Source of the DNA: Modestobacter marinus
GTDB lineage: Bacteria; Actinomycetota; Actinomycetes; Mycobacteriales; Geodermatophilaceae
DNA length: 64,000 nucleotides
Assembly: GCF_011758655.1 (NCBI RefSeq)
Contig: NZ_JAAMPA010000001.1
Coordinates: forward strand, 1,674,001-1,738,000
Direction: 5' to 3'
A program made the translations under genes and the position numbers. The notes below the pieces were generated by a model. That model saw nothing but the letters and a program-made list of their open reading frames with translations, had not been told where the DNA came from and searched no databases. Of this stretch, positions 7,940-62,965 are shown one piece after another (positions within the stretch are counted from its first letter, which is position 1; every line of letters starts with the position of its first letter).

Positions 7940-8974
7940 TCAGACCGGGCGGGCCAGCAGCTCCTTCAGCGCCCCGTCGATGAACTCGTTGTCCGGCGCG
8001 TGCTGGCCCAGCCCGGCGAAGTGCCCGTAGATCGTCGGGATGACCCGGACCTCGCCGTCCGGGATGAACTGCGACGCCCACTCCTCGTCCTCCGGCGGGA
8101 AGTAGAGGTCCGTCTTCGCCGGCATGGCCACCAGTGGGCAGCGGATCGAGCGCAGGGCCGCCTCGGTGTCGCCGTCGAAACCCGGGGTCTTCCCGACGTC
8201 GCCCTGCTCCCAGGTCCAGAGCATCCCCAGCAGGTCGTTGGGGTCGCGGTCGTCGAGCCAGAAGCCCTCCCAGAACCCGACGAGGAAGTCCTCGAGGGAG
8301 GAGAAGCCCAGGTCGCGGTACTCCCGCTGCCGGTAGAAGGCCTGGGAGAGGCCCCAGCCGGCGTAGATCCGGGCGAAGGCCCGCAGGCCGGCGGTGGGCA
8401 GCGCGTCCGGCCGGTAGCGGCCGCCGGCGAACGCCGGGTCGAGGGTGAGGGCGGCGCGCAGGCTCTTGAGGAAGACCTGGTTGTGCTCGCTGGTGACCGG
8501 CGACCCGACGATGGGGGCGGCGCGCTTCACCATCTCGGGGTGGCTGACCGCCCACTGGTAGGTCTGGCCGGCGCCCATGGAGGAGCCGAGGACCAGCTCC
8601 ACGGACTCGATGCCCCACTGCTGCGTGAGCAGCCGGTGTTGCACCTCGACCTGGTCGTAGAAGGTCACGTGCGGGAAGTTCGGCCCGTCGTAGGGCGGCG
8701 GGGTGTTGCTCGGTGACGTCGAGAGGCCGTTGTTGAGCTGGTTGGGCATCACGATGAAGTACTTCTCGGGGTCGCAGGCCAGGCCCGGCCCGACCGACCA
8801 CTCGTTGGCGTCGTGCCAGGCGCTGTACCAGGTGGGGTGGACGATCACGTTGGACCGGTCCGCGTTCAGCGTGCCGTACGTCTTGTAGGCGAGCTGGGCT
8901 CCGCGCAGGGTCGCGCCGCCCTGCAGGACGACGTCCCCCAGGTCGAACAGCTCGTGGTCGGTGGGCCGTGGCAT
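7940..8974 (-). CDS. Alpha/beta fold hydrolase related to homoserine O-acetyltransferase (MetX-like)
   Basis: A 344-residue alpha/beta hydrolase with the MetX-type layout: AYKTYGTLNADRSNVIVHPTWYS near the start, the nucleophile elbow GSSMG (Ser132), a helical lid (FLVGFWEGFWLDD), then MPAKTDLYFPPED with the acid Asp and IYGHFAG with the His. Several substrate-site residues of true homoserine acetyltransferases are not evident, and no other methionine gene is nearby. A MetX-like acyltransferase or hydrolase of unknown substrate is the safest call. It is 30 bp downstream of the MOSC gene on the same strand. Confidence 0.8.
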   Translation of the reverse strand: MPRPTDHELFDLGDVVLQGGATLRGAQLAYKTYGTLNADRSNVIVHPTWYSAWHDANEWSVGPGLACDPEKYFIVMPNQLNNGLSTSPSNTPPPYDGPNFPHVTFYDQVEVQHRLLTQQWGIESVELVLGSSMGAGQTYQWAVSHPEMVKRAAPIVGSPVTSEHNQVFLKSLRAALTLDPAFAGGRYRPDALPTAGLRAFARIYAGWGLSQAFYRQREYRDLGFSSLEDFLVGFWEGFWLDDRDPNDLLGMLWTWEQGDVGKTPGFDGDTEAALRSIRCPLVAMPAKTDLYFPPEDEEWASQFIPDGEVRVIPTIYGHFAGLGQHAPDNEFIDGALKELLARPV

Positions 8975-9004
8975 CGGTGCTCCTCGGGTCGGTGGACGGA
9001 CGGG

Positions 9005-9832
9005 TCAGGCGGGTTGGACGGCGGTCTCGTCGACGAGCTCGACCGGGTCGCCGAGGGCGATGTCCCCTGGCCGCTCCACGGTGGCGTACATGCCGAGGAC
9101 CACCGCCCCGTTGTCCGGCAGGTGCGCCACCGGCGTGCTCAGGTCGGTGGCGAGCTCGCCGCGGTAGCGCACGATCGCCTTCAACGTGCCGAAGTCGACG
9201 GCTCCGCTGTCCGGGTTCTCGTTGGTCACCACGCAGCGCGGCACCGGCCCGACCACCTGCACGGTGACCCCGCCGATCCGCACGCGTCGGCCGGCCCAGG
9301 TGTCCTCCTCGTGCACGCCGCAGCCGTCCACCTCCATGAGCATCCGGAACCTGCGGTGGTCCAGCCGTTCCCCGTCGGGGGTGACCCGGCGCAGGTGCTC
9401 GAGCGTCGCGGTGGAGATCAGCGTGACCGGGTGGACGTCGACCGCGTCGCCGGGCCGGTCGACCGCGACCAGGTGCACCTCCTGCCCGACGAAGTCGCTG
9501 AGCGCAGCCGACCACGGCCCCTCCACGAGGTGCCCGTCGACGCCGCGACCGTAGAAGTCCGTGCGCACCGCCTCGCCCAGCGTGGTGGTCGGGCCCACCA
9601 CCGGTGGCCGGTCGGGGACGTGCAGTCGGAGCTGCTCGTCGCGGGGGTCGAACTCGGCGGTCAGCTGCACGAGCGGGCCGTGGTGCTTGCCGTTGAACAG
9701 CCGCCGTCGGGCGTCGACCAGGTGGAAGCGCCGGTTCTCCGGCACCCCGTTGCCGGTGACCGTCACGGACTGCGGATGGTGCAGGGCGGTGCCCTTGACC
9801 GGGGTGGTCGAGAGTCGGGAGACGAGCGGCAT
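9005..9832 (-). CDS. MOSC domain-containing protein
   Basis: A 275-residue protein with an N-terminal MOSC beta-barrel (LSTTPVKGTALHHPQSVTVT, then RRFHLVDARRRLFNGKHH) and a C-terminal MOSC domain with the conserved cysteine in PRCVVTNENPDSG. MOSC proteins bind a molybdenum cofactor sulfur and include the mARC/YcbX reductases of N-hydroxylated compounds. It lies 78 bp downstream of FmdB1 and could be read from the amide operon or from its own promoter. The ATG at 9832 follows GGAGGG closely. Confidence 0.85.
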   Translation of the reverse strand: MPLVSRLSTTPVKGTALHHPQSVTVTGNGVPENRRFHLVDARRRLFNGKHHGPLVQLTAEFDPRDEQLRLHVPDRPPVVGPTTTLGEAVRTDFYGRGVDGHLVEGPWSAALSDFVGQEVHLVAVDRPGDAVDVHPVTLISTATLEHLRRVTPDGERLDHRRFRMLMEVDGCGVHEEDTWAGRRVRIGGVTVQVVGPVPRCVVTNENPDSGAVDFGTLKAIVRYRGELATDLSTPVAHLPDNGAVVLGMYATVERPGDIALGDPVELVDETAVQPA

Positions 9833-9910
9833 GGCCCTCCGTCCGGAGCGGTGCTGGTGCCGGTGCCGGTGCTGTGGACCGTAGCCGGGGTCGGGCGGTC
9901 GCGCCGCCGC

Positions 9911-10183
9911 TCAGTGCCGGTGGGGCCCGCGGCCGGGCAGGCGTCGTCCTGCGGGCGGACCGGTGACCGCCGGCTCCCCGCTGCGGGCCCGGTCGACCCG
10001 GGCCCGGTCCGCCCGGCCGGCGTCGCGCAGCGGGCCGGTGTCGAGACCTCCGACGCCCACCCGGTACCTGCGCTGTGCCGGTCGGTCGCAGGCCGGGCAC
10101 GGCGCCACCGCGGCGGCGTCGCGCATCTGCCGGTGCAGGTCGAACGGGCCACACCCAGGGCAGTGGAACTCGTACAGCGGCAT
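9911..10183 (-). CDS. fmdB: FmdB family zinc ribbon protein (first copy)
   Basis: A 90-residue protein beginning MPLYEFHCPGCG, the hallmark of FmdB-family zinc ribbons, with the two metal knuckles CPGC and CPAC. The remaining tail is Arg/Gly/Pro-rich. FmdB was defined as a regulatory or accessory protein of the Methylophilus formamidase operon, and here it directly follows an fmdA gene. I start at the ATG at 10183 because the eight codons above it are outside the conserved fold. An accessory or regulatory role in formamidase expression is inferred from family and position. Confidence 0.8.
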   Translation of the reverse strand: MPLYEFHCPGCGPFDLHRQMRDAAAVAPCPACDRPAQRRYRVGVGGLDTGPLRDAGRADRARVDRARSGEPAVTGPPAGRRLPGRGPHRH

Positions 10184-10241
10184 GCGTGCTCCGTTCTCGG
10201 GAGGCACGGGGCGGGCCGTGGCCCGCCCCGCACCGCGCGGC

Positions 10242-11504
10242 TCAGTCGGCCGTCAGGTCCCGGCCACCGCCGGCACCACCGGGCAGGATGTTCCGGTCGA
10301 AGATCGACAGCGGGATGCTGATCGAGACCGCGCTGTTCGGGATGTCCACCACGCCGCCGATCCGGCCGTCGATCGGCGCGGCCCCCAGGAACAGGTAGGC
10401 CTGCTCGAACGTCCAGTCCATCGCCGGCATCAGGAAGTTGATCGCGTTGAGGCAGGCCTGGCGGTAGGCGACGGTCGCGTTCATGTAGTAGTTGCGGCCG
10501 TCCTCGACGCTGATCCCCTCGAAGGTGAGGAACTCCGAGTAGTTCGGCCCGACCCGGCCGGGCTTGAAGAACGGCATCGACTGCTTGTAGCGGTCCATCC
10601 CGCCCTTGATCAGGTCGAAGTGGAGGTCGATGGAGCCGGGCATCTCGATCGCGCCGCAGAAGGTGATCTCGCCGTCCCCCTGGGCGAAGTGCAGGTCGCC
10701 GATGGAGAAGAGCCCACCGGGTACGAAGACCGGCATGTAGACCCGGGTGCCCACGCCGAGGTCCTTGATGTCGACGTTGCCGCCGTGCTCCCGCGGCGGG
10801 ATCGTGCGGCAGGCCTCGGCGGCCGCCCGGTCCAGGTCCGCGCCGCTGAGCGTGCCCAGCAGCGCGTCCTTGCGCAGCGGGGGGAGGGCCAGGGCGGGCA
10901 CCTGCGGCGTGCCGGGGACGTCGCCCTCGTGGGCCGGGATGTCGCCGGTGACCCGGTCCGGGTTCTGGTCGATCAGCGCCTGCTCCCGCCGGTTCCACTC
11001 CGCCAGCAGGTCCGGCGACGGGGCGCAGCCGAACAGCCCCGGGTGGGAGTTGCCGATGAACCGCACGCCGGGAACGTGCCGGCTGGTCGTCCAGATGCCG
11101 TCGAGGTCCCAGATCGCCTTGGACGCCCCGGGCGAGTGGTCGGTGAGGAACCCGCCGCCGTTCTCCTTGGCGAAGATCCCGGTGTAGCCCCACTCCTGCT
11201 CCTGGAAGGGGCCGATGTCCACGATGTCGACGACCAGCAGGTCGCCGGGCTCCGCGCCCTCGATCGCGAAGGGCCCGCTGAGCACGTGGCACGGGTCGAT
11301 GTTCATGTCGCGGATGTCGTCGGCGTCGTCGGTGTTGCGGACCTGGTCGTCGGTCCAGTCCTTGCACTCGATCCGGTACGTCCCGCCGGGGGCGACGGTG
11401 TTGGCCGGCGGGATGTCGGGGTGCCAGCGGTTGTGGCCGGGCACCGTCTGGTCGCGCATCGGCACGCTCAGGTCGCGATTGATCTCGAAGATGACGTCGG
11501 GCAC
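10242..11504 (-). CDS. fmdA: Acetamidase/formamidase FmdA (first copy)
   Basis: A 420-residue enzyme of the FmdA/AmdA family, which hydrolyses formamide or acetamide to the acid and ammonia. The sequence shows the family blocks HNRWHPDIP near residue 24, HVLSGPFAIEGAEPGDLLVVDI (about 73-94), GFLTDHSPGASKAIWD, HPGLFGCAPS and GDLHFAQGDGEITFCGAIE. Length is normal for the family. It lies 41 bp downstream of a second fmdA-like gene with the same blocks and just upstream of FmdB1. The difference in the SHPGLFGCAPS region relative to its neighbour suggests different amide preference. Confidence 0.92.
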   Translation of the reverse strand: MPDVIFEINRDLSVPMRDQTVPGHNRWHPDIPPANTVAPGGTYRIECKDWTDDQVRNTDDADDIRDMNIDPCHVLSGPFAIEGAEPGDLLVVDIVDIGPFQEQEWGYTGIFAKENGGGFLTDHSPGASKAIWDLDGIWTTSRHVPGVRFIGNSHPGLFGCAPSPDLLAEWNRREQALIDQNPDRVTGDIPAHEGDVPGTPQVPALALPPLRKDALLGTLSGADLDRAAAEACRTIPPREHGGNVDIKDLGVGTRVYMPVFVPGGLFSIGDLHFAQGDGEITFCGAIEMPGSIDLHFDLIKGGMDRYKQSMPFFKPGRVGPNYSEFLTFEGISVEDGRNYYMNATVAYRQACLNAINFLMPAMDWTFEQAYLFLGAAPIDGRIGGVVDIPNSAVSISIPLSIFDRNILPGGAGGGRDLTAD

Positions 11505-11545
11505 GGGAGCTCCTCAGGCCAGGCGGACGGGGTGGACGGACGTGC

Positions 11546-12799
11546 TCAGAAGCTCGACCGGGGGACGCCCGTGCCGGGGTCGATCCGCGTCGGCCCGGAC
11601 GCCGAGGGGGTGACGTCGACGTCGAAGATCGCGGTCGGGAGGTAGACCGTGGCGCAGGAGTTCGGGATGTCGACCACCCCGGACAGCCGCCCCTCGATCG
11701 GCGCGGCGCCGAGGATCATGTACGCCTGCTCGGGCGACCAGCCGAACTTCGTCAGGTAGTCGATCGCGTGCAGGCAGGCCCGCTGGTAGGACAGGTGCGA
11801 GTCCAGGTAGCGCTGCTCGTCGTCCAGCGTCACCGATGTCCCGGAGAAGGCCAGCCACCTCTCGTACCGGGGGTCGACGTTGCCCGGCATGAAGATGGCG
11901 TTCTCGCCCACCCCGTAGGTCTCCATGCCGCCCTTGATCAGGTCGACGTGCAGGTCGATGAAGCCGCCCATCTCGATGGCCCCGCAGAAGGTGATCTCGC
12001 CGTCCCCCTGGGAGAAGTGCAGGTCGCCCAGCGACAGCTTCGCCCCGGGCACGTAGACGGGGTAGAAGACCCGGCTGCCCTTGGTCAGGTTCTTGATGTC
12101 CTGGTTGCCGCCGTTCTCCCGGGGCGGCGCGGTGCGGGCGGCCTCACCGGCGACGCGGTCGTACTCCGCGCCGGTCAGCCCGGAGAGGATGGCGTCCTGG
12201 GGGAGGGGCGGCAGGGCCAGCGGTGGCACCCGGTCGGGGTCGGTGGCGATCAGCGCACCCTCGCGCCGGTTCCAGCGGGCCAGCAACTCCGCGGACGGCG
12301 CGGTGCCCATCAGGCCGGGGTGCACGATGCCGGTGAAGGACACGTGCGGGACGTGCCGGGAGGTCGCCGTCTGCCCGGCGAAGTCCCAGATCACCTTGTA
12401 GGCGTCCGGGAACTGGTCGGTCAGGAAGCCGCCGCCGTTCTGCCGGGCGAAGATGCCGGTGTAGCCCCAGCCCTGCCCGGCCAGCGGGCCGGAGTCCTCC
12501 TGCGGGATCGGCCCGACGTCGAGGATGTCCACGATCAGCAGGTCACCGGGCTCGGCGCCCTCCACGGCGAAGGGCCCGCTGAGCACGTGCACCGTGGACA
12601 GCGGCGCGTCCCGGACGTCGTCGGCGGAGTCGTCGTTGTGGATCGCCCCGTCGAACCACTCGCGGCAGTCGACCCGGAAGGTGTCCCCCGGGCGCACCGT
12701 CACCTGGGCCGGGATGTCGGGGTGCCAGCGGTTGTGGCCGATGTGCTGCTGGTCGGTGAACGGCTTGCTGGAGTCGAGGGGGAACAGGCGCTCGGGCAT
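11546..12799 (-). CDS. Acetamidase/formamidase family protein (second copy)
   Basis: A 417-residue paralogue of the adjacent FmdA, sharing HNRWHPDIPAQ, HVLSGPFAVEGAEPGDLLIVDI, NGGGFLTDQFPDAYKVIWD, HPGLMGTAPS and GDLHFSQGDGEITFCGAIE. The two copies clearly come from a tandem duplication but have diverged throughout. Compared with copy one it has an extra PIPQEDSGPLAGQG insert near residue 105 and lacks the segment after DPDRV. It sits between the AmiS/UreI channel and FmdA1, all on the minus strand. A distinct short-chain amide is the likely substrate. Confidence 0.9.
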   Translation of the reverse strand: MPERLFPLDSSKPFTDQQHIGHNRWHPDIPAQVTVRPGDTFRVDCREWFDGAIHNDDSADDVRDAPLSTVHVLSGPFAVEGAEPGDLLIVDILDVGPIPQEDSGPLAGQGWGYTGIFARQNGGGFLTDQFPDAYKVIWDFAGQTATSRHVPHVSFTGIVHPGLMGTAPSAELLARWNRREGALIATDPDRVPPLALPPLPQDAILSGLTGAEYDRVAGEAARTAPPRENGGNQDIKNLTKGSRVFYPVYVPGAKLSLGDLHFSQGDGEITFCGAIEMGGFIDLHVDLIKGGMETYGVGENAIFMPGNVDPRYERWLAFSGTSVTLDDEQRYLDSHLSYQRACLHAIDYLTKFGWSPEQAYMILGAAPIEGRLSGVVDIPNSCATVYLPTAIFDVDVTPSASGPTRIDPGTGVPRSSF

Positions 12800-12863
12800 G
12801 GTCTGGCTCCTGGGCTCGGGTCTGGCTGCGGATGCGGTCGGCCGACGACTCGGGGGCGGGGCC

Positions 12864-13523
12864 TCACCTCCGCCGGTGGGCCGGCGCGGGCTGTTCCGCG
12901 GGCTGCTCCTGCACGACGTTGCCGTGCATCTGGGTGCGCCGTTCCCGGAGAGCGGGGAACGCGGCCAGGGAGAGCAGCAGGAGGACGGCGAGCAGGACCG
13001 CCCACGTCGTCACGTTGTCCGCCCAGACGCCGGTCATCAGCAGGAACGCCGGGATGGCGCAGGTCAGGACCCCGGCGACGACGGCGACGAGCCCGGTGAA
13101 CCGGGTGAGCTCCTCCCGCTTGAGCCCCAGCACCAGGAAGAACAGCGCCCACAGCACCGCCCAGTACAGCCAGATGACCCCGAACGCCGGGTCGTCGAGC
13201 CGGCCGAAGTTCAGGCCCGCGTAGACCACGGCGCAGCCCGCCACGAACGCGGAGAACCAGCCGAGCCCGGTGCCGTCCAGACCGCGGGTCAGGTTCAGGC
13301 CCACGTACAGGTAGGTGAAGCCGAACAGGTAGAGCCCCGAGGCGCCGAGGACCACGTCCGGATCGCCGCCGGAGGTGACGATCAGGTAGGTCGGCGTGAA
13401 GACCTGCAGCCCGCCGACGAAGAAGTTCAGCGGCGCGGCCGCCCGGCCGTCCACCCGGCCCAGCAGCATCAGGCCGTTCACGATGAGGACCGCTCCGACG
13501 TACAGCAGACCGACACTGGCCAT
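12864..13523 (-). CDS. AmiS/UreI family amide/urea channel
   Basis: A 219-residue integral membrane protein with six evident hydrophobic segments (for example ASVGLLYVGAVLIVNGLMLL and VIWLYWAVLWALFFLVLG) and a hydrophilic C-terminal tail. The LNFFVGGLQVFTPTYL block is characteristic of AmiS/UreI, hexameric channels for urea or short amides. It lies in the formamidase operon, so it most likely admits formamide or acetamide. The start follows GGGAGGG. Length fits the family. Confidence 0.9.
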   Translation of the reverse strand: MASVGLLYVGAVLIVNGLMLLGRVDGRAAAPLNFFVGGLQVFTPTYLIVTSGGDPDVVLGASGLYLFGFTYLYVGLNLTRGLDGTGLGWFSAFVAGCAVVYAGLNFGRLDDPAFGVIWLYWAVLWALFFLVLGLKREELTRFTGLVAVVAGVLTCAIPAFLLMTGVWADNVTTWAVLLAVLLLLSLAAFPALRERRTQMHGNVVQEQPAEQPAPAHRRR

Positions 13524-56376: not shown

Positions 56377-57432
56377 TCAGTCCTCGGTGGCCAGCGCCAG
56401 GTCGTCGGCGGTGGCCGTGCTGGGCAGCGACGTCGTCGGCGCGGACGCCGGCTCCAGCACCTTCACCGTGTCGTAACCGAGGTGCTTGAACAGCCGGTTC
56501 TGGAAGCTCAGCAGCTTCAGTGGGGTGCCGTCGGAGGCGAAGTGCTGCGCGACGGTGTTCTGCGGCACGTAGAGGGTGTCGCCCTGCTTGAAGTCGAAGC
56601 GCTGGGGCTCCTTGGCGATGTGCGCGTAGTAGCGCTCGGCGATCTCGGCCTGCACCTCCCAGTGCAGCGAGTAGCCCTCGCCCTCCTTGACGTAGAGAAT
56701 CTCGTCGGCCATCTTCCAGTGCCGCCCGGTGTGCCCACCAGGGTCGAGGGCGAACTCGAACGCGTCGACGCTGAACAGCCGGGCGTGCTCGGTCCGCGGG
56801 CTGGTCATGACCCGGACCCGACCGAGGTCGGTGTCCTCCCAGACGGTCGACGCCGGGCTGACCACCTTGGTGCGGTCCAGCACCCCGGGGGTCCAGATCG
56901 CCGACCAGTCCTCCCGCGGGCCGAACTCCTCCTCGCGGGTGATCGGGCCACCGCGGCCCTGCTGCAGCAGGCCGAGGAACATCCAGGTGCACTTGGCCTT
57001 GATGACGAGGCAGACGGCCTTCTCGTCGTAGGGGTTGAAGTGCTGGTGCACCGAGTCGGTGTGGACGAAGACGAAGTCGTCCTTCTTCCAGTCGTAGCGC
57101 AGGTCGTCGTGGATCTCGTAGCCGGCGCCCTCGAGGATGTAGAAGGCGGCCTCGTTCTGATGCCCGTGGCCCTTGTTCTGCCCGTGCCCGTCGATCTCGA
57201 TGAAGTGCACCTGCAGGGTCTGGGTCAGGAACTCCTCGTCCCCGGGGCCGACCCGCCAGGAGACCCGGGACTGCTTGGTGGCCGCACCGGAGTGACCGAC
57301 CGCCTCGCCGTGGTCGACGACGACCGTCTTGTCCCGCACCCGGGGGTGGGAGAGCTGCAGCTGGCGGACCGCCTCCAGTTCGTACTTGTCGAACTCCAGT
57401 CCGCGCACGAACACGCGCCCGTCTTCACCCAT
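56377..57432 (-). CDS. Fused bicupin protein
   Basis: A 351-residue protein with two cupin domains. Domain 1 has an intact metal site: KGHGHQNEAAFYILEG (His89, His91, Glu94) and HTDSVHQHFN (His129, His131). Domain 2 is degenerate: motif 1 reads TGRHWKMADEILYV (His238, but Lys240 where the second His should be) and motif 2 reads NTVAQHF (Ala295 replaces the ligand). The two domains match, in order, the separate cupins at 37034 and 37692. The ATG at 57432 follows AGGAGG. A ring-cleaving dioxygenase role is possible but unproven. Its promoter contains a near-perfect GntR-type site. Confidence 0.85.
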   Translation of the reverse strand: MGEDGRVFVRGLEFDKYELEAVRQLQLSHPRVRDKTVVVDHGEAVGHSGAATKQSRVSWRVGPGDEEFLTQTLQVHFIEIDGHGQNKGHGHQNEAAFYILEGAGYEIHDDLRYDWKKDDFVFVHTDSVHQHFNPYDEKAVCLVIKAKCTWMFLGLLQQGRGGPITREEEFGPREDWSAIWTPGVLDRTKVVSPASTVWEDTDLGRVRVMTSPRTEHARLFSVDAFEFALDPGGHTGRHWKMADEILYVKEGEGYSLHWEVQAEIAERYYAHIAKEPQRFDFKQGDTLYVPQNTVAQHFASDGTPLKLLSFQNRLFKHLGYDTVKVLEPASAPTTSLPSTATADDLALATED

Positions 57433-57595
57433 CGGGTCCTCCTGTCGTCTGCGGCGTCCGCCGTGGGGTGGCCACGTCCGCCCGGCGGGCGGCGTGGGTG
57501 ACGTTCCGGTCGGCCGTGGAACGGCGTCGTCCCGCAGCGGGGACGACTGTCCGCGCGGCCGGGGGGATGTGACCGGGGTCATCTCCGCCACGTAC

Positions 57596-58183: not shown

Positions 58184-58375
58184 ATGGAGGTGCTCGTGCT
58201 GGAACCGCGATCCGGACAGCCCGTCGAGGACACCGCGCCGGGGTCCGACGAGTCGTCACCCGAGCCGGCGCCGACCGACGTCCCACCCGTCCCCGGCCCT
58301 CCCCCCGGGGTCCCCGACGAGGACTGGCCCGACGGCAGTCCGCCGGTGAACCCCGGGGTGATGGACCCCGGCTGA
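58184..58375 (+). CDS. Hypothetical Pro-rich acidic small protein
   Basis: A 63-residue frame rich in Pro, Asp, Glu and Gly, starting MEVLVLEPRSGQPVEDT and ending in PPVNPGVMDPG. GAGGAC lies at a suitable distance upstream. I recognise no family, and the opposite strand is also open, so it may be non-coding. If not real, 58083-58519 is a gene-free stretch whose only clear content is the promoter at 58418-58453. Confidence 0.35.
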   Translation: MEVLVLEPRSGQPVEDTAPGSDESSPEPAPTDVPPVPGPPPGVPDEDWPDGSPPVNPGVMDPG

Positions 58376-58417
58376 GCTGGGCCCACGGGCGGCAGGCGGT
58401 CGGTGCCAGCGGGGTGT

Positions 58418-58453
58418 TTGACAGGTCACATCAGTGGTCATACGGTCCTACCA
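58418..58453 (+). promoter_or_regulatory. Strong promoter with overlapping GntR-type operator for cupin/eutA-like genes
   Basis: TTGACA (58418-58423) and TACGGT (58441-58446) are exactly 17 bp apart. CGGTCCTACCA (58443-58453) overlaps the -10 and the start region, and shares GGTCCTACCAAT with the bicupin promoter. A half site TGGTC lies in the spacer (58435). Repressor binding here would block initiation. Confidence 0.7.
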
Positions 58454-58519
58454 ATCGCCGCGCTGCTGCGCCGCCGGCCCGTCGAGGGTCGCTCAGCCCA
58501 TTCGAACCAGGGAGGCCTC

Positions 58520-59641
58520 ATGGCCAAGGACGCGATCGTCAACGAGAACCTCGCAGCGAAGTTCGCCACGGAGAAGGACTCGCCGTACACCCGGTGGGTC
58601 GCCGACGAGGGCCTGGACATCATCGCCGCGCACTACGTGCCCGATCTGAAGACCGTGGAGCTCAAGGACTGGACCCGCCGGGGTGGCCGGGGGGTCTTCA
58701 TCAATCATGAGGCCAGCCGCACCTCGAACGACTGCTACGTGGCCGAGATCCCGGCCGGCGGCGCGCTCGCCCCGCAGCGACAGCTGTTCGAGGAGATGAT
58801 CCTCATCCTCTCCGGCCACGGCTCCACCAAGGTGTGGAACGACGCCGGCGCCGAGGTCACGTTCGAGTGGGGGCCGGGTGCGCTGTTCGCCATCCCGCTG
58901 AACGCCTCGCACCAGCACTTCAACGGCTCGGGTTCCGAGGTCGCACGGTTCGTCTCCTCGACGAACGCCCCCGGCATCGTCAACCTCTACGACGACATCG
59001 ACTTCGTCTTCAGCACCGCCCACGACTTCCCCAAGCGGTTCGACGGTGAGCCGGACTACTTCGCGCCCAAGGGCGAGCAGAAGGGGCTGCTGCTGGACAC
59101 CAACTTCGTGGCCGACTCCATCAACCTGCCGTTGATCGAGGCCAAGGAGCGCGGCGCCGGCGGCGGGCACATCCGGTTCAACATGGCCAAGGGCTCCATG
59201 AACAGCCACATCTCGCAGTTCCCCACCGCCACGTACAAGAAGGGGCACCGGCACGGTCCGGGTGCGCACGTGATCATCCTGTCGGGCGAGGGCTACAGCC
59301 TGATGTGGCCCGAGGGCGAGGAGCCCCGGCGCTACGAGTGGCAGGCAGGGAGCATGATCGTCCCGCCGAACATGTGGTACCACCAGCACTTCAACACCGG
59401 CACCGAGCCGGCCCGCTACCTCGCCTTCAAGCACGAGGTGGTGTCCATCCGCAACGCGCAGGGCGTGCCCAAGGCCTGGATCAGTCAGCGGATCGGCGGC
59501 GACCAGATCGACTACGCCGACGAGTCGGCCTACGTGCGCGAGACCTTCACCGAGGCCCTGGCCAAGCACGGCCTGGAGCCGCAGATGGTGGCCGCGTACG
59601 AGCAGGAGAAGGAGACCCTGCCACCCCAGCCGGTCGCCTGA
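58520..59641 (+). CDS. Bicupin domain protein with a degenerate N-terminal metal site
   Basis: A 373-residue protein with two cupin domains. Domain 1 has ALAPQRQLFEEMILILSG, where Gln86 and Gln88 stand in place of the HxH pair, though NASHQHFN (His131, His133) is kept. Domain 2 has an intact motif YKKGHRHGPGAHVIILSG (His243, His245, His250) and PPNMWYHQHFN (His288, His290). It differs from the other cupins in length and pattern; similar proteins are sometimes labelled ethanolamine ammonia-lyase activating, a name I cannot verify. The ATG at 58520 follows GGAGG. It is followed by the EutA-like gene. Confidence 0.82.
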   Translation: MAKDAIVNENLAAKFATEKDSPYTRWVADEGLDIIAAHYVPDLKTVELKDWTRRGGRGVFINHEASRTSNDCYVAEIPAGGALAPQRQLFEEMILILSGHGSTKVWNDAGAEVTFEWGPGALFAIPLNASHQHFNGSGSEVARFVSSTNAPGIVNLYDDIDFVFSTAHDFPKRFDGEPDYFAPKGEQKGLLLDTNFVADSINLPLIEAKERGAGGGHIRFNMAKGSMNSHISQFPTATYKKGHRHGPGAHVIILSGEGYSLMWPEGEEPRRYEWQAGSMIVPPNMWYHQHFNTGTEPARYLAFKHEVVSIRNAQGVPKAWISQRIGGDQIDYADESAYVRETFTEALAKHGLEPQMVAAYEQEKETLPPQPVA

Positions 59642-59664
59642 CCCCGCCTTCCTGTCCCATTCCG

Positions 59665-59700
59665 GACGTGCGGTCCGCCCCTCGTGGCGGGCCGCACGTC
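59665..59700 (+). other. Intercistronic hairpin between cupin and EutA-like genes
   Basis: A 15-bp stem with one G-U pair (59665-59679 and 59686-59700) and a 6-nt loop lies 24 bp after the cupin stop and 20 bp before the EutA-like start. It could reduce expression of the second gene relative to the first, as expected for a chaperone-type partner. Confidence 0.65.
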
Positions 59701-59720
59701 GTCGTCTCGAGGAGTTCTGG

Positions 59721-61334
59721 GTGACCTACGACGACGAGCACTCCCACCACCACGGCCACCAGGAGGGTGACCTGGCCCACGGCCGGGACCACGCCGCTCC
59801 GCAGATCGTGTACTCGCCCCACGTGCCCGACCACGACCACGACCACGACGACGCCGAGATGCCGCTCCAGGACAACCCGATCTGGCAGCAGGACAACGTC
59901 TCCCTGTCCAGCGTCGGCATGGACATCGGCTCCTCCGGCACGCAGGTGGTGTTCTCCCGGCTGCACCTGCGCCGGATCGGTGAGGACCTGACCAGCCGTT
60001 ACATCGTGGTGCGTCGAGAGACGCTCTACCGCTCGCCGGTGAGCCTGACGCCCTACGCCAGCGCTGAGCTCATCGACGCCGAGGCGCTCGGCTCGATCAT
60101 CGACCGCGCCTACGGCGAGGCCCGGATCGGGCCCGAGGACGTCGACACCGGCGTCGTCATCCTCACCGGCGAGGCGCTGCGCCGTCGCAACGCCGAGGCG
60201 ATCGCCGGCGTGCTCGCCGAACGGGGCGGGGAACTGGTGACCGCCACCGCCGGGCACAACATGGAGGCCATGCTGGCGGCCTACGGCTCGGGCGCGGCCA
60301 AGGCGTCCTACGACAGCGGCCGCCGGATCCTCAACGTCGACATCGGCGGTGGCACCACCAAGTTCGCCTTGCTCGACGGAGGTCGAGTCGTCGCGACCGC
60401 GGCGGTGCACGTCGGCGGCCGGCTGCAGGTCGTCGACGGCAGTGGCACCATCGTCCGGCTGGACCCGGCCGGTCGCCGGCACGCCCGGCGTGCCGGGTAC
60501 GACTGGGCCCTGGGGGACACCGCACGGGACGCCGAGCTGGCCCAGGTGGCCGAGAGGATGGCCGACGCACTGGTCGCCGCGGTCAGCGCCGACCCGCCGC
60601 CAGAGGTGGCCGAGCTGTTCCTCACCCCCGCTCTCGGTGACCTCGGTGCGATCGACGGCGTGATGTTCTCCGGTGGGGTGGGCGAGTACGTCTACGACCG
60701 GGAGACGGTCTCCTTCGGCGACCTGGGTCGGCCGCTCGGCCGGGCCGTCCGACGCCGGGTCGACTCGGGTGCGCTGCCCTACCCACTCCTGGAGGCCGGT
60801 GAGTGCATCCGGGCCACGGCGTTGGGTGCCTCGGAGTACAGCGTCCAGCTCAGCGGCAACACCGGTTGGATCTCCGACCCCGACGCGCTGCTCCCCCGCC
60901 GCAACCTGCAGGTGGTGCGGCCGCGCTACGAGCTCGGCGAGTCGGTCCAGCCCGACGAGATCGCCGCGGCGATCCGCGCACACCTCGTCGCCCTCGACGC
61001 CGATCAACTGCTCCATGACATGGCCCTGGCCATGTCATGGAGCGGTCTGCCCAGCTACGCCCGGCTGTCCGCCTTCGCCCGCGGCCTGCGGGACGGGCTG
61101 GCGGAGCGGATCGACGCCGGTCGGCCGGTGTACGTGGTGCTCGACGGCGACGTGGCCATGACCCTCGGCCGGTTGCTGCGCGATGAGCTCGGCGTGCCGG
61201 GGGAGGTGCTCGTGGTGGACGGGCTGAACCTGCGCGACTTCGACTACATCGACCTGGGTCGGCTCCGCCACCCGTCGAACACCGTGCCGGTGACCATCAA
61301 GTCCCTGGTGTTCAGCGAGGACCCGCACCGCTGA
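59721..61334 (+). CDS. EutA-like reactivating factor (ASKHA ATPase fold) with His-rich N-terminus
   Basis: A 537-residue protein of the EutA family, whose known member releases inactive cobalamin from ethanolamine ammonia-lyase. Phosphate loops of the actin/Hsp70-like fold are GMDIGSSGTQVVFSR (66-80) and NVDIGGGTTKFALLDGG (205-221). Residues 1-45 hold 11 histidines plus many Asp, including DHDHDHDD, a probable metal-binding extension. No EutB/EutC genes are visible. It lies 79 bp after a bicupin gene and ends 12 bp from the convergent GntR gene. It may serve another enzyme, perhaps the cupin. Confidence 0.85.
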   Translation: MTYDDEHSHHHGHQEGDLAHGRDHAAPQIVYSPHVPDHDHDHDDAEMPLQDNPIWQQDNVSLSSVGMDIGSSGTQVVFSRLHLRRIGEDLTSRYIVVRRETLYRSPVSLTPYASAELIDAEALGSIIDRAYGEARIGPEDVDTGVVILTGEALRRRNAEAIAGVLAERGGELVTATAGHNMEAMLAAYGSGAAKASYDSGRRILNVDIGGGTTKFALLDGGRVVATAAVHVGGRLQVVDGSGTIVRLDPAGRRHARRAGYDWALGDTARDAELAQVAERMADALVAAVSADPPPEVAELFLTPALGDLGAIDGVMFSGGVGEYVYDRETVSFGDLGRPLGRAVRRRVDSGALPYPLLEAGECIRATALGASEYSVQLSGNTGWISDPDALLPRRNLQVVRPRYELGESVQPDEIAAAIRAHLVALDADQLLHDMALAMSWSGLPSYARLSAFARGLRDGLAERIDAGRPVYVVLDGDVAMTLGRLLRDELGVPGEVLVVDGLNLRDFDYIDLGRLRHPSNTVPVTIKSLVFSEDPHR

Positions 61335-61346
61335 GGGCGGTGCAGG

Positions 61347-62120
61347 TCAGACGCCGGCGGCGTGGTCCGCGTCCTCGACGCGCTGCGCGGTACGGGTCAG
61401 GTGCGTGCGCATCAGCTCGGTGGCCTCGGCGATGTCCCGCTTGGTGATCGCGTCGACCAGCGCCCGGTGCTCCTCCACGCCGTGTTGCCCGTGGGTCGGG
61501 GAGGTCTCCCGTGCCCGCTCCAGGGAACGCAGCAGCGGGTCGTGCAGCGACTCCACGAACATGGACACGGCCCGGTTGTGCCCGGCCCTGGCGTACCGGG
61601 TGTGCCACTCGGCGGAGAGCTCGAGCGGGTACTCGCCGGCGGTGATGGCCGCATCGCTCTGGTCGCAGATCTCGTACAGCGCGGCGATGTCCTCGTCGGT
61701 GGCCCGCTCGCACACCAGCGGGACGATGCCCAGTTCGAAGAGCATCCGTGCCTCGGTCACCTCGACGGCGGTGATGGAGGCCAGGGAGATCAGGTCCACG
61801 ATGCCCTCGCCGACCAGTCGACTGCTGGGGGCTGTGACGAAGGCCCCGCCGCGCGCGCCGACCCGGATCTCGACGAGTCCGTTGGCCTCCAGGACGCGCA
61901 GCGCCTCACGGACGGTCACCCGGCTGACCCCGAAGCGTTCGCACAGCTCGCGCTCGGACGGCAGTCGGTCGCCGGCGACCAGCCGGCCCTGGCGGATGAG
62001 CAACCGGACCTGGTCGACGATCACCTCGGAGATGCGGCCGATGCTCACGCGACTCAGCAGGTCTCCGGTGCCTGTCCCCGCAGCTGCGCCGGTGGCGTCT
62101 GGTGTCGCGGGCATCGTCAC
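61347..62120 (-). CDS. GntR family regulator, FadR/FCD subfamily
   Basis: A 257-residue regulator. The winged helix spans about 30-97 with the GntR signature DRLPSERELCERFGVSRVTVREALRVLE. The C-terminal FCD domain (about 110-245) has the helical pattern with EWHTRYARAGHNR and HGVEEHRALVDAI, whose His residues commonly bind a metal and a carboxylate effector. The start is GTG at 62120. Its family recognises TGGTnnnACCA-like dyads, which recur upstream of island genes, so it is the best candidate for the local repressor. Effector inferred: a pathway carboxylate. Confidence 0.9.
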   Translation of the reverse strand: MTMPATPDATGAAAGTGTGDLLSRVSIGRISEVIVDQVRLLIRQGRLVAGDRLPSERELCERFGVSRVTVREALRVLEANGLVEIRVGARGGAFVTAPSSRLVGEGIVDLISLASITAVEVTEARMLFELGIVPLVCERATDEDIAALYEICDQSDAAITAGEYPLELSAEWHTRYARAGHNRAVSMFVESLHDPLLRSLERARETSPTHGQHGVEEHRALVDAITKRDIAEATELMRTHLTRTAQRVEDADHAAGV

Positions 62121-62170
62121 ACCGCCATCCTAGAGCCGCGGGATGTGCGGGGACGTCTTTCCGGACACTT

Positions 62171-62965
62171 TCATCCCGCAGGAGCACGGGAGCGGGTCGG
62201 CCCGGTCGGCGAGGTGGTGCGGGCGCCCCGCTGCCGGGCGACCTCGGCAGCGCCGGCGGCAGCCGCCACGGGGTCCAGGTACCGCCCGCCGCGCTGGACG
62301 GGGGAGAGGTCCTCGTCCAGCTCGTGGTGCAGCGGGCTGCCGATCGGGATGTCCAGGTCGAGGACCTCGTCGTCCGACAACCGGTCCAGGTGGGCGACCA
62401 GGGCACGCAGTGAGTTGCTGTGCCCGGTGACCAGCACGGTGCGGCCGGCGCGCAGGTCGGGGACGACCTCCTCGTCCCAGTGGGGCAGCAGCCGGGCCTG
62501 CACGTCGCGCAGGCTCTCGGCACGCGGGAGCAGGGTGGGCGGCACGTGGGCGTAGCGCGGGTCGCCCGCCGGGTCGCCCGGGCCGCCGGGCTCGACCGCC
62601 GGCGGCCGCCCCTCGTACGAGCGTCGCCAGTGACGGAGTCGCTCGCCGCCGTACCGGGCGCGCGCGACCTGGCGGTCCATGCCCTGCAGCACGCCGTAGT
62701 GGCGCTCGTTGAGCCGCCACGACCGGTGGACCGGGGCCTCCGGCCGGCCGGCGGCCGCCATCGCCAGGGTGCCGGTGTGCACGGCGCGGGCCAACAGGGA
62801 GGTGTGCAGGACGCCGGGGGGCAGGCCGGCCTCGGCGATCAGGCGGCCGGCGTGCCGGGCCTGATCCGCACCGTGGGCGGTCAGGCCCACGTCGACCCAT
62901 CCGGTGAACAGGTCGCGGTCGTTCCACTCGCTCTCGCCGTGGCGCAGCAGGAGCAGCGTCGGCAC
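62171..62965 (-). CDS. 2,3-bisphosphoglycerate-dependent phosphoglycerate mutase family protein
   Basis: A 264-residue histidine phosphatase-fold protein starting LLLLRHGESEWNDRDLFTGWVDVGL, with the phospho-accepting His in RHG, then LNERHYGVLQGMDR and a second histidine in VTGHSNSLRALVAHL. These match dPGM (GpmA). An insert-like region near 110-145 includes the RRSY block typical of GpmA. The C-terminus is extended with Arg/Ala/Pro. Whether it is the housekeeping enzyme is unknown. It lies next to the GntR gene, in the same direction, 50 bp upstream of it. Confidence 0.85.
   Translation of the reverse strand: MPTLLLLRHGESEWNDRDLFTGWVDVGLTAHGADQARHAGRLIAEAGLPPGVLHTSLLARAVHTGTLAMAAAGRPEAPVHRSWRLNERHYGVLQGMDRQVARARYGGERLRHWRRSYEGRPPAVEPGGPGDPAGDPRYAHVPPTLLPRAESLRDVQARLLPHWDEEVVPDLRAGRTVLVTGHSNSLRALVAHLDRLSDDEVLDLDIPIGSPLHHELDEDLSPVQRGGRYLDPVAAAAGAAEVARQRGARTTSPTGPTRSRAPAG

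Follow-up and report, generated by a model that had tools for sequence, protein, structure and literature searches.

EutA is known as the reactivating factor of ethanolamine ammonia-lyase (EutBC), on which it performs an ATP-requiring exchange of the cofactor (PMC5821096, accessible part), and the same name is also in use for ectoine utilisation. Nickel quercetinase, a cupin, shows the spacing HxH-x4-(E or H) followed by a later His; the E76H variant of the quercetinase QueD keeps its fold with both Ni and Co, the Ni form having around 2% of the wild-type activity, and metal incorporation is ascribed to relative complex stability, with no delivery ATPase mentioned in the accessible part of the source (PMC4416304). 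Here we describe a EutA-like gene of Modestobacter marinus that lies in a window of 64,000 nucleotides (contig NZ_JAAMPA010000001.1; C1:1674001-1738000) and follows a gene for a bicupin. That bicupin is very probably the partner of this branch of the EutA family. On balance we favour the view that the EutA-like protein is not a reactivase of ethanolamine ammonia-lyase and is instead an ATPase dedicated to the maturation or repair of the upstream bicupin.

Genomic partners of the EutA-like gene

The position of the gene directly behind a bicupin gene on the same strand (Table 1), which had been noted in a sequence-only reading of the window, is a recurrent one. To describe it we used the best 80 of at least 512 relatives from 84,980 species genomes, ranked by similarity to the query and thus not a random sample, which included Streptomyces, Planotetraspora, Mycobacterium, alpha-, beta- and gammaproteobacteria and Paenibacillus. 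A bicupin matching that of the window at 65% or more (over at least 60 amino acids, aa) was found in 60 of these 80 loci, within 300 nt of the EutA gene in 35 loci and within 3.5 kb in 48, and on the same strand in 55 of the 60. Of the 20 genomes whose loci lack such a bicupin in the fetched DNA, 17 have one at another site (9 of 11 and 8 of 9; the set of 11 genomes also included L101, a locus with a bicupin). Either gene may be first, and in L024, L026, L062 and the second pair of L065 the picked starts give a start/stop overlap of 4 nt between the two.

The association was also seen in samples that were drawn by taxonomy. An order-level sample of 200 genomes contained 13 with a EutA match, which was weak and incomplete in two; in the remaining 11 genomes, 11 of the 12 EutA places adjoin a bicupin, even at around 40% EutA identity, and the twelfth is truncated at a contig end. 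Within a phylum sample of 396 genomes the bicupin (77% identity or more) occurred in four, each with a window-type EutA alongside, and in a 200-genome order sample around G603 the bicupin and a window-type EutA (62-65%) were found in the same two genomes; with the centre genomes (G000, that of the window, and G603), which were included by choice, left aside, the co-occurrence amounts to three and one genomes. Other EutA types without a window-type bicupin were present in the G603 sample in G807 (42%), G784 (32%) and G745 (33%). A plasmid search returned 25 records, all below 60% identity, among which were a Haladaptatus record with the order EutB-EutC-EutA and records from Phyllobacterium and Sinorhizobium in which a bicupin lies 58 and 23 nt from EutA, respectively. 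On the Phyllobacterium plasmid (L164, 7617-12149) the EutA and bicupin genes are found near a gene of the YjbE family of putative metal transporters. G829 and G831 carry a tandem pair of window-type bicupin genes, 68-76% identical to the query.

Many proteobacterial loci contain a second EutA, mostly 41-45% identical and in many cases starting like MSEE..GGRVFFSNVRRSLEEED, which often adjoins a second bicupin of around 30% identity. In L065, L092, L129 and L136 the close EutA is found by the close bicupin and the distant EutA by the distant one. The pairwise identities of the two proteins correlate over 72 pairs within 1.3 kb (r = 0.727, to which shared descent contributes; maximum of 2000 permutations 0.259). 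As a separate observation, the second EutA of L092, L098, L112, L114, L120, L124, L129, L136 and L147 lacks the His-rich tails described below and lies beside a divergent bicupin of its own, frequently within one and the same cluster.

The link to ethanolamine ammonia-lyase is of a different kind. The EutA-like gene is the only EutA-family match of the genome at E 0.001. The window holds neither EutB nor EutC, in agreement with the sequence-only reading, and the sole EutB match of the genome (C1:2995166-2996485) lies beyond it, 1.26 Mb from the EutA-like gene and next to EutC and an amino-acid permease, in a short permease-eutB-eutC operon without eutA (L003, C1:2985000-3004000, positions 8671-12352). 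An eutBC elsewhere in a genome without another eutA had been put forward in that reading as a finding that would speak against a different partner. This is literally the situation encountered, yet it is not decisive, because 11 of the 18 phylum-sample genomes with EutB lack a full-length EutA match and an ammonia-lyase independent of EutA has been published (PMC9426561, accessible part). The constant company of eutBC, which would have spoken against it as well, was not observed: EutB or EutC was present in the fetched DNA of none of 96 loci. The phylum sample yielded 12 full-length EutA genes in 11 genomes. Six of these adjoin EutB, and their fetched DNA contains no bicupin (G366, G532, G345, G324, G419, G237), the other six adjoin a bicupin and not EutB (G377, G208, G330, two in G271, and G000), and none lies beside both. 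Of the five genomes in which EutA lies by a bicupin, four (G208, G271, G330, G377) gave no EutB match.

The same division is apparent in the proteins themselves. The Pfam EutA domain (PF06277) covers residues 62-531 (369 bits, E 4.9e-110, profile positions 3-474 of 475) and was the only Pfam match of the EutA-like protein, the P-loop domain of CobW, HypB and UreG not being matched there. The curated EutA equivalog models gave 290.9, 263.5, 212.4 and 201.7 bits, all far short of their cut-offs (598, 769, 952 and 799). In a tree of 107 of 120 EutA sequences (at least 420 aa, LG+G4, quick mode; with a long-branch warning and the finer branching unsure), the six EutB-linked rows, five from the phylum sample and one from Haladaptatus, are split from the 101 others by a branch with SH-aLRT 100, and the window protein falls in a clade of 77 rows with support 100. 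The protein is thus a EutA by its PF06277 domain, and stands outside EutA proper by the curated score, by the lack of co-encoded eutBC and by its placement away from the EutB-linked EutAs. The proposal of the sequence-only reading that the partner is an enzyme other than EutBC is strongly supported by the linkage, the co-occurrence with the bicupin that it had proposed to examine, the pairing of the paralogues and the separate clade.

The two proteins and their surroundings

The features of the gene pair are collected in Table 1. Consensus scans for promoters and terminators over positions 58200-62300 gave no matches. In the AlphaFold2 model of the EutA-like protein the core is mostly confident and the N-terminus is of low confidence, with a predicted local distance difference test (pLDDT) score below 50 at residues 1-30, 32-44 and 531-537. 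The core aligns with the ASKHA-type structure 3cer_A (Z 18.1, root-mean-square deviation (rmsd) 3.7, 260 residues aligned) and with FtsA 7q6d (Z 16.3, rmsd 4.2, 246 aligned). The residues listed as invariant for the DIGS, DIGGGTTK and SGG motifs are identical in all 35 aligned members; the first two resemble phosphate-binding motifs and the last an adenosine motif. Given this conservation, the protein likely uses ATP.

Table 1. Features of the EutA-like gene and its bicupin neighbour (window positions)
Feature	Position	Strand	Remarks
Partner bicupin gene	58520..59641	+	373 aa; ends 79 nt upstream of the EutA-like gene
Bicupin motif H243-x-H245-x4-H250, C-terminal domain	59246..59269	+	H243 and H245 in 68/68, H250 in 67/68 window-type bicupins
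Bicupin H288-Q-H290, fourth metal-ligand-like His	59381..59389	+	H288 and H290 in 68/68 window-type bicupins
Ribosome-binding-like motif GAGGAG	59709..59714	+	6 nt ahead of the GTG; read from sequence
EutA-family (ASKHA-like fold) ATPase gene	59721..61334	+	537 aa, GTG start
His-rich N-terminus, residues 1-45	59721..59855	+	11 His; low confidence and probably disordered in the model
DHDHDHDD motif, residues 37-44	59829..59852	+	similar in actinobacterial and proteobacterial members
Linker PLQDNPIWQQDN	59862..59897	+	directly behind the DHDHDHDD; actinobacterial and proteobacterial members have similar linkers
DIGS, phosphate-binding-like	59922..59933	+	D68, G70, S71 invariant
DIGGGTTK, phosphate-binding-like, residues 207-214	60339..60362	+	D207, G209-211, T212, K214 invariant
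SGG, adenosine-motif-like, residues 317-319	60669..60677	+	G318, G319 invariant

Among the fold matches of the model were also structures of the activator type (4ehu_B, Z 14.5, rmsd 4.1, 228 aligned; 9gai_D, Z 14.9, rmsd 4.2, 228 aligned). We therefore considered an ATP-driven electron-transfer activator, as found for 2-hydroxyacyl-CoA dehydratase and benzoyl-CoA reductase, and rejected it: an iron-sulfur bridge is unlikely because the protein has a single cysteine (residue 362), which is present in 20 of the 35 aligned members. Structures of the DdrA type, which we take to be dehydratase reactivases, were absent from the first 50 fold matches; this is no evidence against kinship.

As stated in the sequence-only reading, the first 45 residues contain 11 histidines; the remaining 492 hold eight, and at the background of the protein itself the probability of at least 11 in 45 residues is around 1e-10. 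A DHDHD-like motif with an ENPxWxxD-like linker behind it is found repeatedly, in actinobacteria as well as in proteobacteria. Within the 45 in-frame residues that precede the core, an HxH was found in 81 of 89 window-type EutAs, in 6 of 22 other bicupin-type EutAs and in none of the six EutB-linked ones. The first of these figures is a minimum, as four of the eight misses (L077, L084, L119, L145) show an HxH in a separate listing of the N-termini. In addition, 47 of 88 window-type members, mainly proteobacterial, have a C-terminal tail with at least five histidines (57 aa with 21 His in L094), compared with 0 of 21 other bicupin-type EutAs. In these counts L021 and L074 are the same locus, as are L062 and L123, so that each is counted twice; two rows without an anchor were left out of the tail count, and the 193-aa 'tail' with 14 His of the EutB-linked L068 was taken as read-through of another frame. 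In L087 (around 9902-13375) the EutA frame with its His-rich tail continues stop-free into ABC-permease-like sequence, which represents a fusion or an assembly error.

The complete four-histidine motif of the bicupin occurs in 67 of 68 aligned window-type bicupins, and the three histidines of the gentisate/salicylate-type bicupins (H243, H245 and H288, all in the C-terminal domain, as judged by alignment) in all 68. Among 29 bicupins of greater distance, eight also carry His at position 250, the other 21 having V, I or A there. The model of the bicupin has a pLDDT of 89.6. The best match by VIA-align was salicylate 1,2-dioxygenase 2phd (Z 21.0, rmsd 4.4, 269 aligned), followed by gentisate 1,2-dioxygenase 3bu7 (Z 20.4, rmsd 4.5, 280 aligned); MncA and oxalate decarboxylase scored only slightly lower (2vqa_A, Z 19.7, rmsd 4.8, 255 aligned; 5vg3_A, Z 19.5, rmsd 4.8, 253 aligned). 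The sequence profile put 3bu7 first (E 1.2e-8), in the C-terminal cupin domain. The fold does not settle the type of reaction, since oxalate decarboxylase and MncA are near in Z and come first by Foldseek.

Genes related to nickel or cobalt were found close to the pair in some lineages. The nickel/cobalt permease NicO (PF03824) is present in 11 of the 80 loci (L087, L098, L112, L114, L120, L122, L133, L141, L146, L150, L151), in at least two gene orders, NikR in five (L133, L136, L146, L150, L151) and a CobW-family GTPase in six (L106, L133, L146, L147, L150 and L151, the last ended by a contig edge); the families were named on representatives and the searches queried with members already found, so that further importers may have escaped detection. 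Alpha- or gammaproteobacterial loci likewise carry NikR or CobW (L136, L147, L106). In 10 of the 11 NicO genomes the copy near EutA is the only NicO match (from 41 chosen genomes that included all 11 NicO-bearing loci). At around one NicO per several megabases, we estimate that one within 10 kb would be expected in well under 1% of loci. NicO scored above the cut-off in 7 of 14 bicupin-type genomes searched.

The window or related loci further encode Rieske oxygenases of a family whose C-terminal domain is LigXa-like, LigK (above cut-off), an amidohydrolase, UbiD, thiamine pyrophosphate (TPP) enzymes, aldehyde dehydrogenase and uptake systems. These gene families were derived with a custom open reading frame picker, only the representatives being named by Pfam or NCBIfam. 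The neighbouring genes are suggestive of aromatic catabolism. A second, distinct bicupin with His-rich cupin motifs is encoded in the window at 56377-57567 (minus strand), and its relatives in many proteobacterial EutA loci are two adjacent single-cupin genes of around 200 aa. A gene of the histidine-phosphatase family (phosphoglycerate-mutase-like) lies near the pair in the window (62171-62965, minus strand) and in related actinobacterial loci, where a PanB-like enzyme and an isomerase, presumably RpiB-like, also recur.

Proposed role and alternatives

Starting from the ATP-requiring cofactor exchange of EutA, the His-rich ends and the metal-gene neighbours, we lean towards ATP-driven loading or repair of the bicupin metal, with nickel or cobalt as the likeliest metals. 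The disordered, His/Asp-rich N-terminus would collect a divalent metal, Ni2+ being the likeliest and Co2+ a possible one, and the His-rich C-terminal tail of many proteobacterial orthologues may help to do so. The ASKHA core would dock on the bicupin and, with ATP, open it so that the metal could be inserted or a lost, oxidised or wrong one be swapped; this would be the cofactor-exchange trick of EutA with a bare metal ion in the place of cobalamin. The metallated bicupin, similar in fold to ring-cleaving dioxygenases of the gentisate/salicylate type, would then work in the surrounding aromatic-catabolism cluster. The metal-loading or reactivating chaperone of the sequence-only reading thus receives indirect support, from the His-rich ends, the nickel/cobalt genes near the pair in some lineages and the four-histidine motif of the bicupin. 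More tentatively, and at somewhat less than even chances in our judgement, a large EutA clade spanning Actinomycetota, Pseudomonadota and Bacillota may have left the B12 enzymes and become a nickel/cobalt insertase and repair ATPase for bicupin dioxygenases.

Several observations weigh against this role. The identity of the metal is its weakest step, because the genome of the window itself shows no NicO match, as is the case for G120, G208, G271 and G377, so that another importer would be needed there; in G158 and G186 NicO matches fall below the cut-off. All 11 NicO loci were taken as betaproteobacterial and thus amount to few independent events. The occurrence of NikR in some loci favours nickel, which we hold with less confidence than the loading role as such; cobalt fits NicO and CobW about equally well, and iron and manganese are also in play. 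Gentisate and salicylate dioxygenases are iron enzymes, the Foldseek list is headed by Mn oxalate decarboxylase and MncA, with 3bu7 at rank 33, and cupins use many metals. The four-histidine site was read from the alignment, not from model coordinates. Furthermore, the His motif is missing in L062/L123 (one locus fetched twice) and in L095, and the window protein has a C-terminal tail of 6 aa that is not His-rich, leaving the N-terminal region only. The His-poor second EutA is nevertheless paired with a bicupin, and the basic role may therefore not need a His-rich metal store. Three of the 80 genomes (G588, G589, G598), all metagenome-assembled, have no window-type bicupin; the locus of G598 (L098) is a whole contig of 20 kb. 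Finally, we infer the interaction of the two proteins, the binding and identity of the metal, the ATPase activity with ATP-driven loading, and the ring cleavage.

ASKHA subunits of the hydantoinase and acetone-carboxylase type act as substrate activators, and by analogy the ATPase could phosphorylate or activate a substrate in complex with the bicupin. The ASKHA-like fold with its conserved ATP motifs and the close pairing with a likely catabolic enzyme would be in line with such an activity, but no kinase family was matched and both the His-rich ends and the metal-gene neighbours would be left unexplained, so we regard it as improbable. There is similarly little to be expected from the assumption that the EutA-like gene and the bicupin gene are linked by a common catabolic cluster only, serving one pathway without acting on each other. 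In the window or in related loci the two are indeed surrounded by genes for Rieske and TPP enzymes, transporters and decarboxylases; however, the other neighbours vary while the pair mostly stays together, each paralogue keeps its own partner, and the 17 genomes in which the pair is not contained in one fetched locus still hold both genes.

That the gene encodes the usual reactivase of the distant EutBC (1.26 Mb away) and has become stranded next to a bicupin is very improbable. This would account for the gene being the only EutA-family member found in an EutBC-bearing genome, but it is at odds with the fully supported separation from the EutB-linked EutAs, with the absence of EutB and EutC from the fetched DNA of all 96 loci, with the lack of an EutB match in four of the five phylum-sample genomes with a bicupin-side EutA and with the lack of a full-length EutA in 11 of the 18 EutB genomes of that sample. 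Less remote, though still unlikely, is a reactivase proper. It would rid the bicupin of a cofactor that has become inactive, be it oxidised iron or a bound inhibitor product, and the His-rich ends would only buffer metal. The pairing of the His-poor paralogue would be readily understood in this way and the published job of EutA is the ATP-requiring removal of a damaged cofactor (PMC5821096, accessible part), but the His-rich ends of the window-type clade and its NicO, NikR and CobW neighbours are then left over.

Should the pairing prove functional, a family of reactivases so far associated with cobalamin enzymes would serve a metal-only enzyme, and the problem of how the right metal reaches a cupin, posed in the accessible part of PMC4192464, would become directly testable with two adjacent genes. 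If the loading of nickel holds true as well, a nickel-dependent aromatic catabolism would be hidden in the databases under the name EutA. A bicupin-linked member from Phyllobacterium, for example, is annotated as 'ethanolamine ammonia-lyase reactivating factor EutA' and its bicupin as 'hypothetical protein', which suggests the wrong pathway. We know of no precedent for a dedicated metal-delivery ATPase for a cupin, and no paper on the pairing of EutA and a bicupin was found in the open-access literature searched.

Comparison with known systems

EutA and the EutA-like protein belong to the same domain family, the latter sharing 31-37% identity with the phylum sample's six EutB-linked EutAs, and they plausibly share an ATP-driven cofactor exchange on a partner enzyme. 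They differ in that partner, which is the bicupin instead of EutBC, in the His-rich ends and in the separate clade. With the nickel NTPase chaperones and nickel stores HypB, UreE/UreG and SlyD (PMC4192464, accessible part) the EutA-like protein has in common the His-rich ends, a likely nucleotide hydrolysis and the co-encoding with a metalloenzyme, and in some loci genes for nickel uptake, sensing or a GTPase are found near the EutA-like genes. In contrast to HypB and UreE/UreG, it has an ASKHA-like fold instead of that of a P-loop GTPase, its target would be a cupin, and we infer the delivery of metal.

The bicupin fold is shared with salicylate and gentisate 1,2-dioxygenase (2phd and 3bu7), to which the window bicupin is 11-16% identical and from which it differs by the extra His at position 250. 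The nickel quercetinase QueD is likewise a cupin, a dioxygenase that takes both Ni and Co (PMC4416304, accessible part). The window bicupin belongs to a different subfamily, yet the HxH-x4-H plus H pattern that it carries is the very one created in QueD by the E76H substitution (PMC4416304, accessible part).

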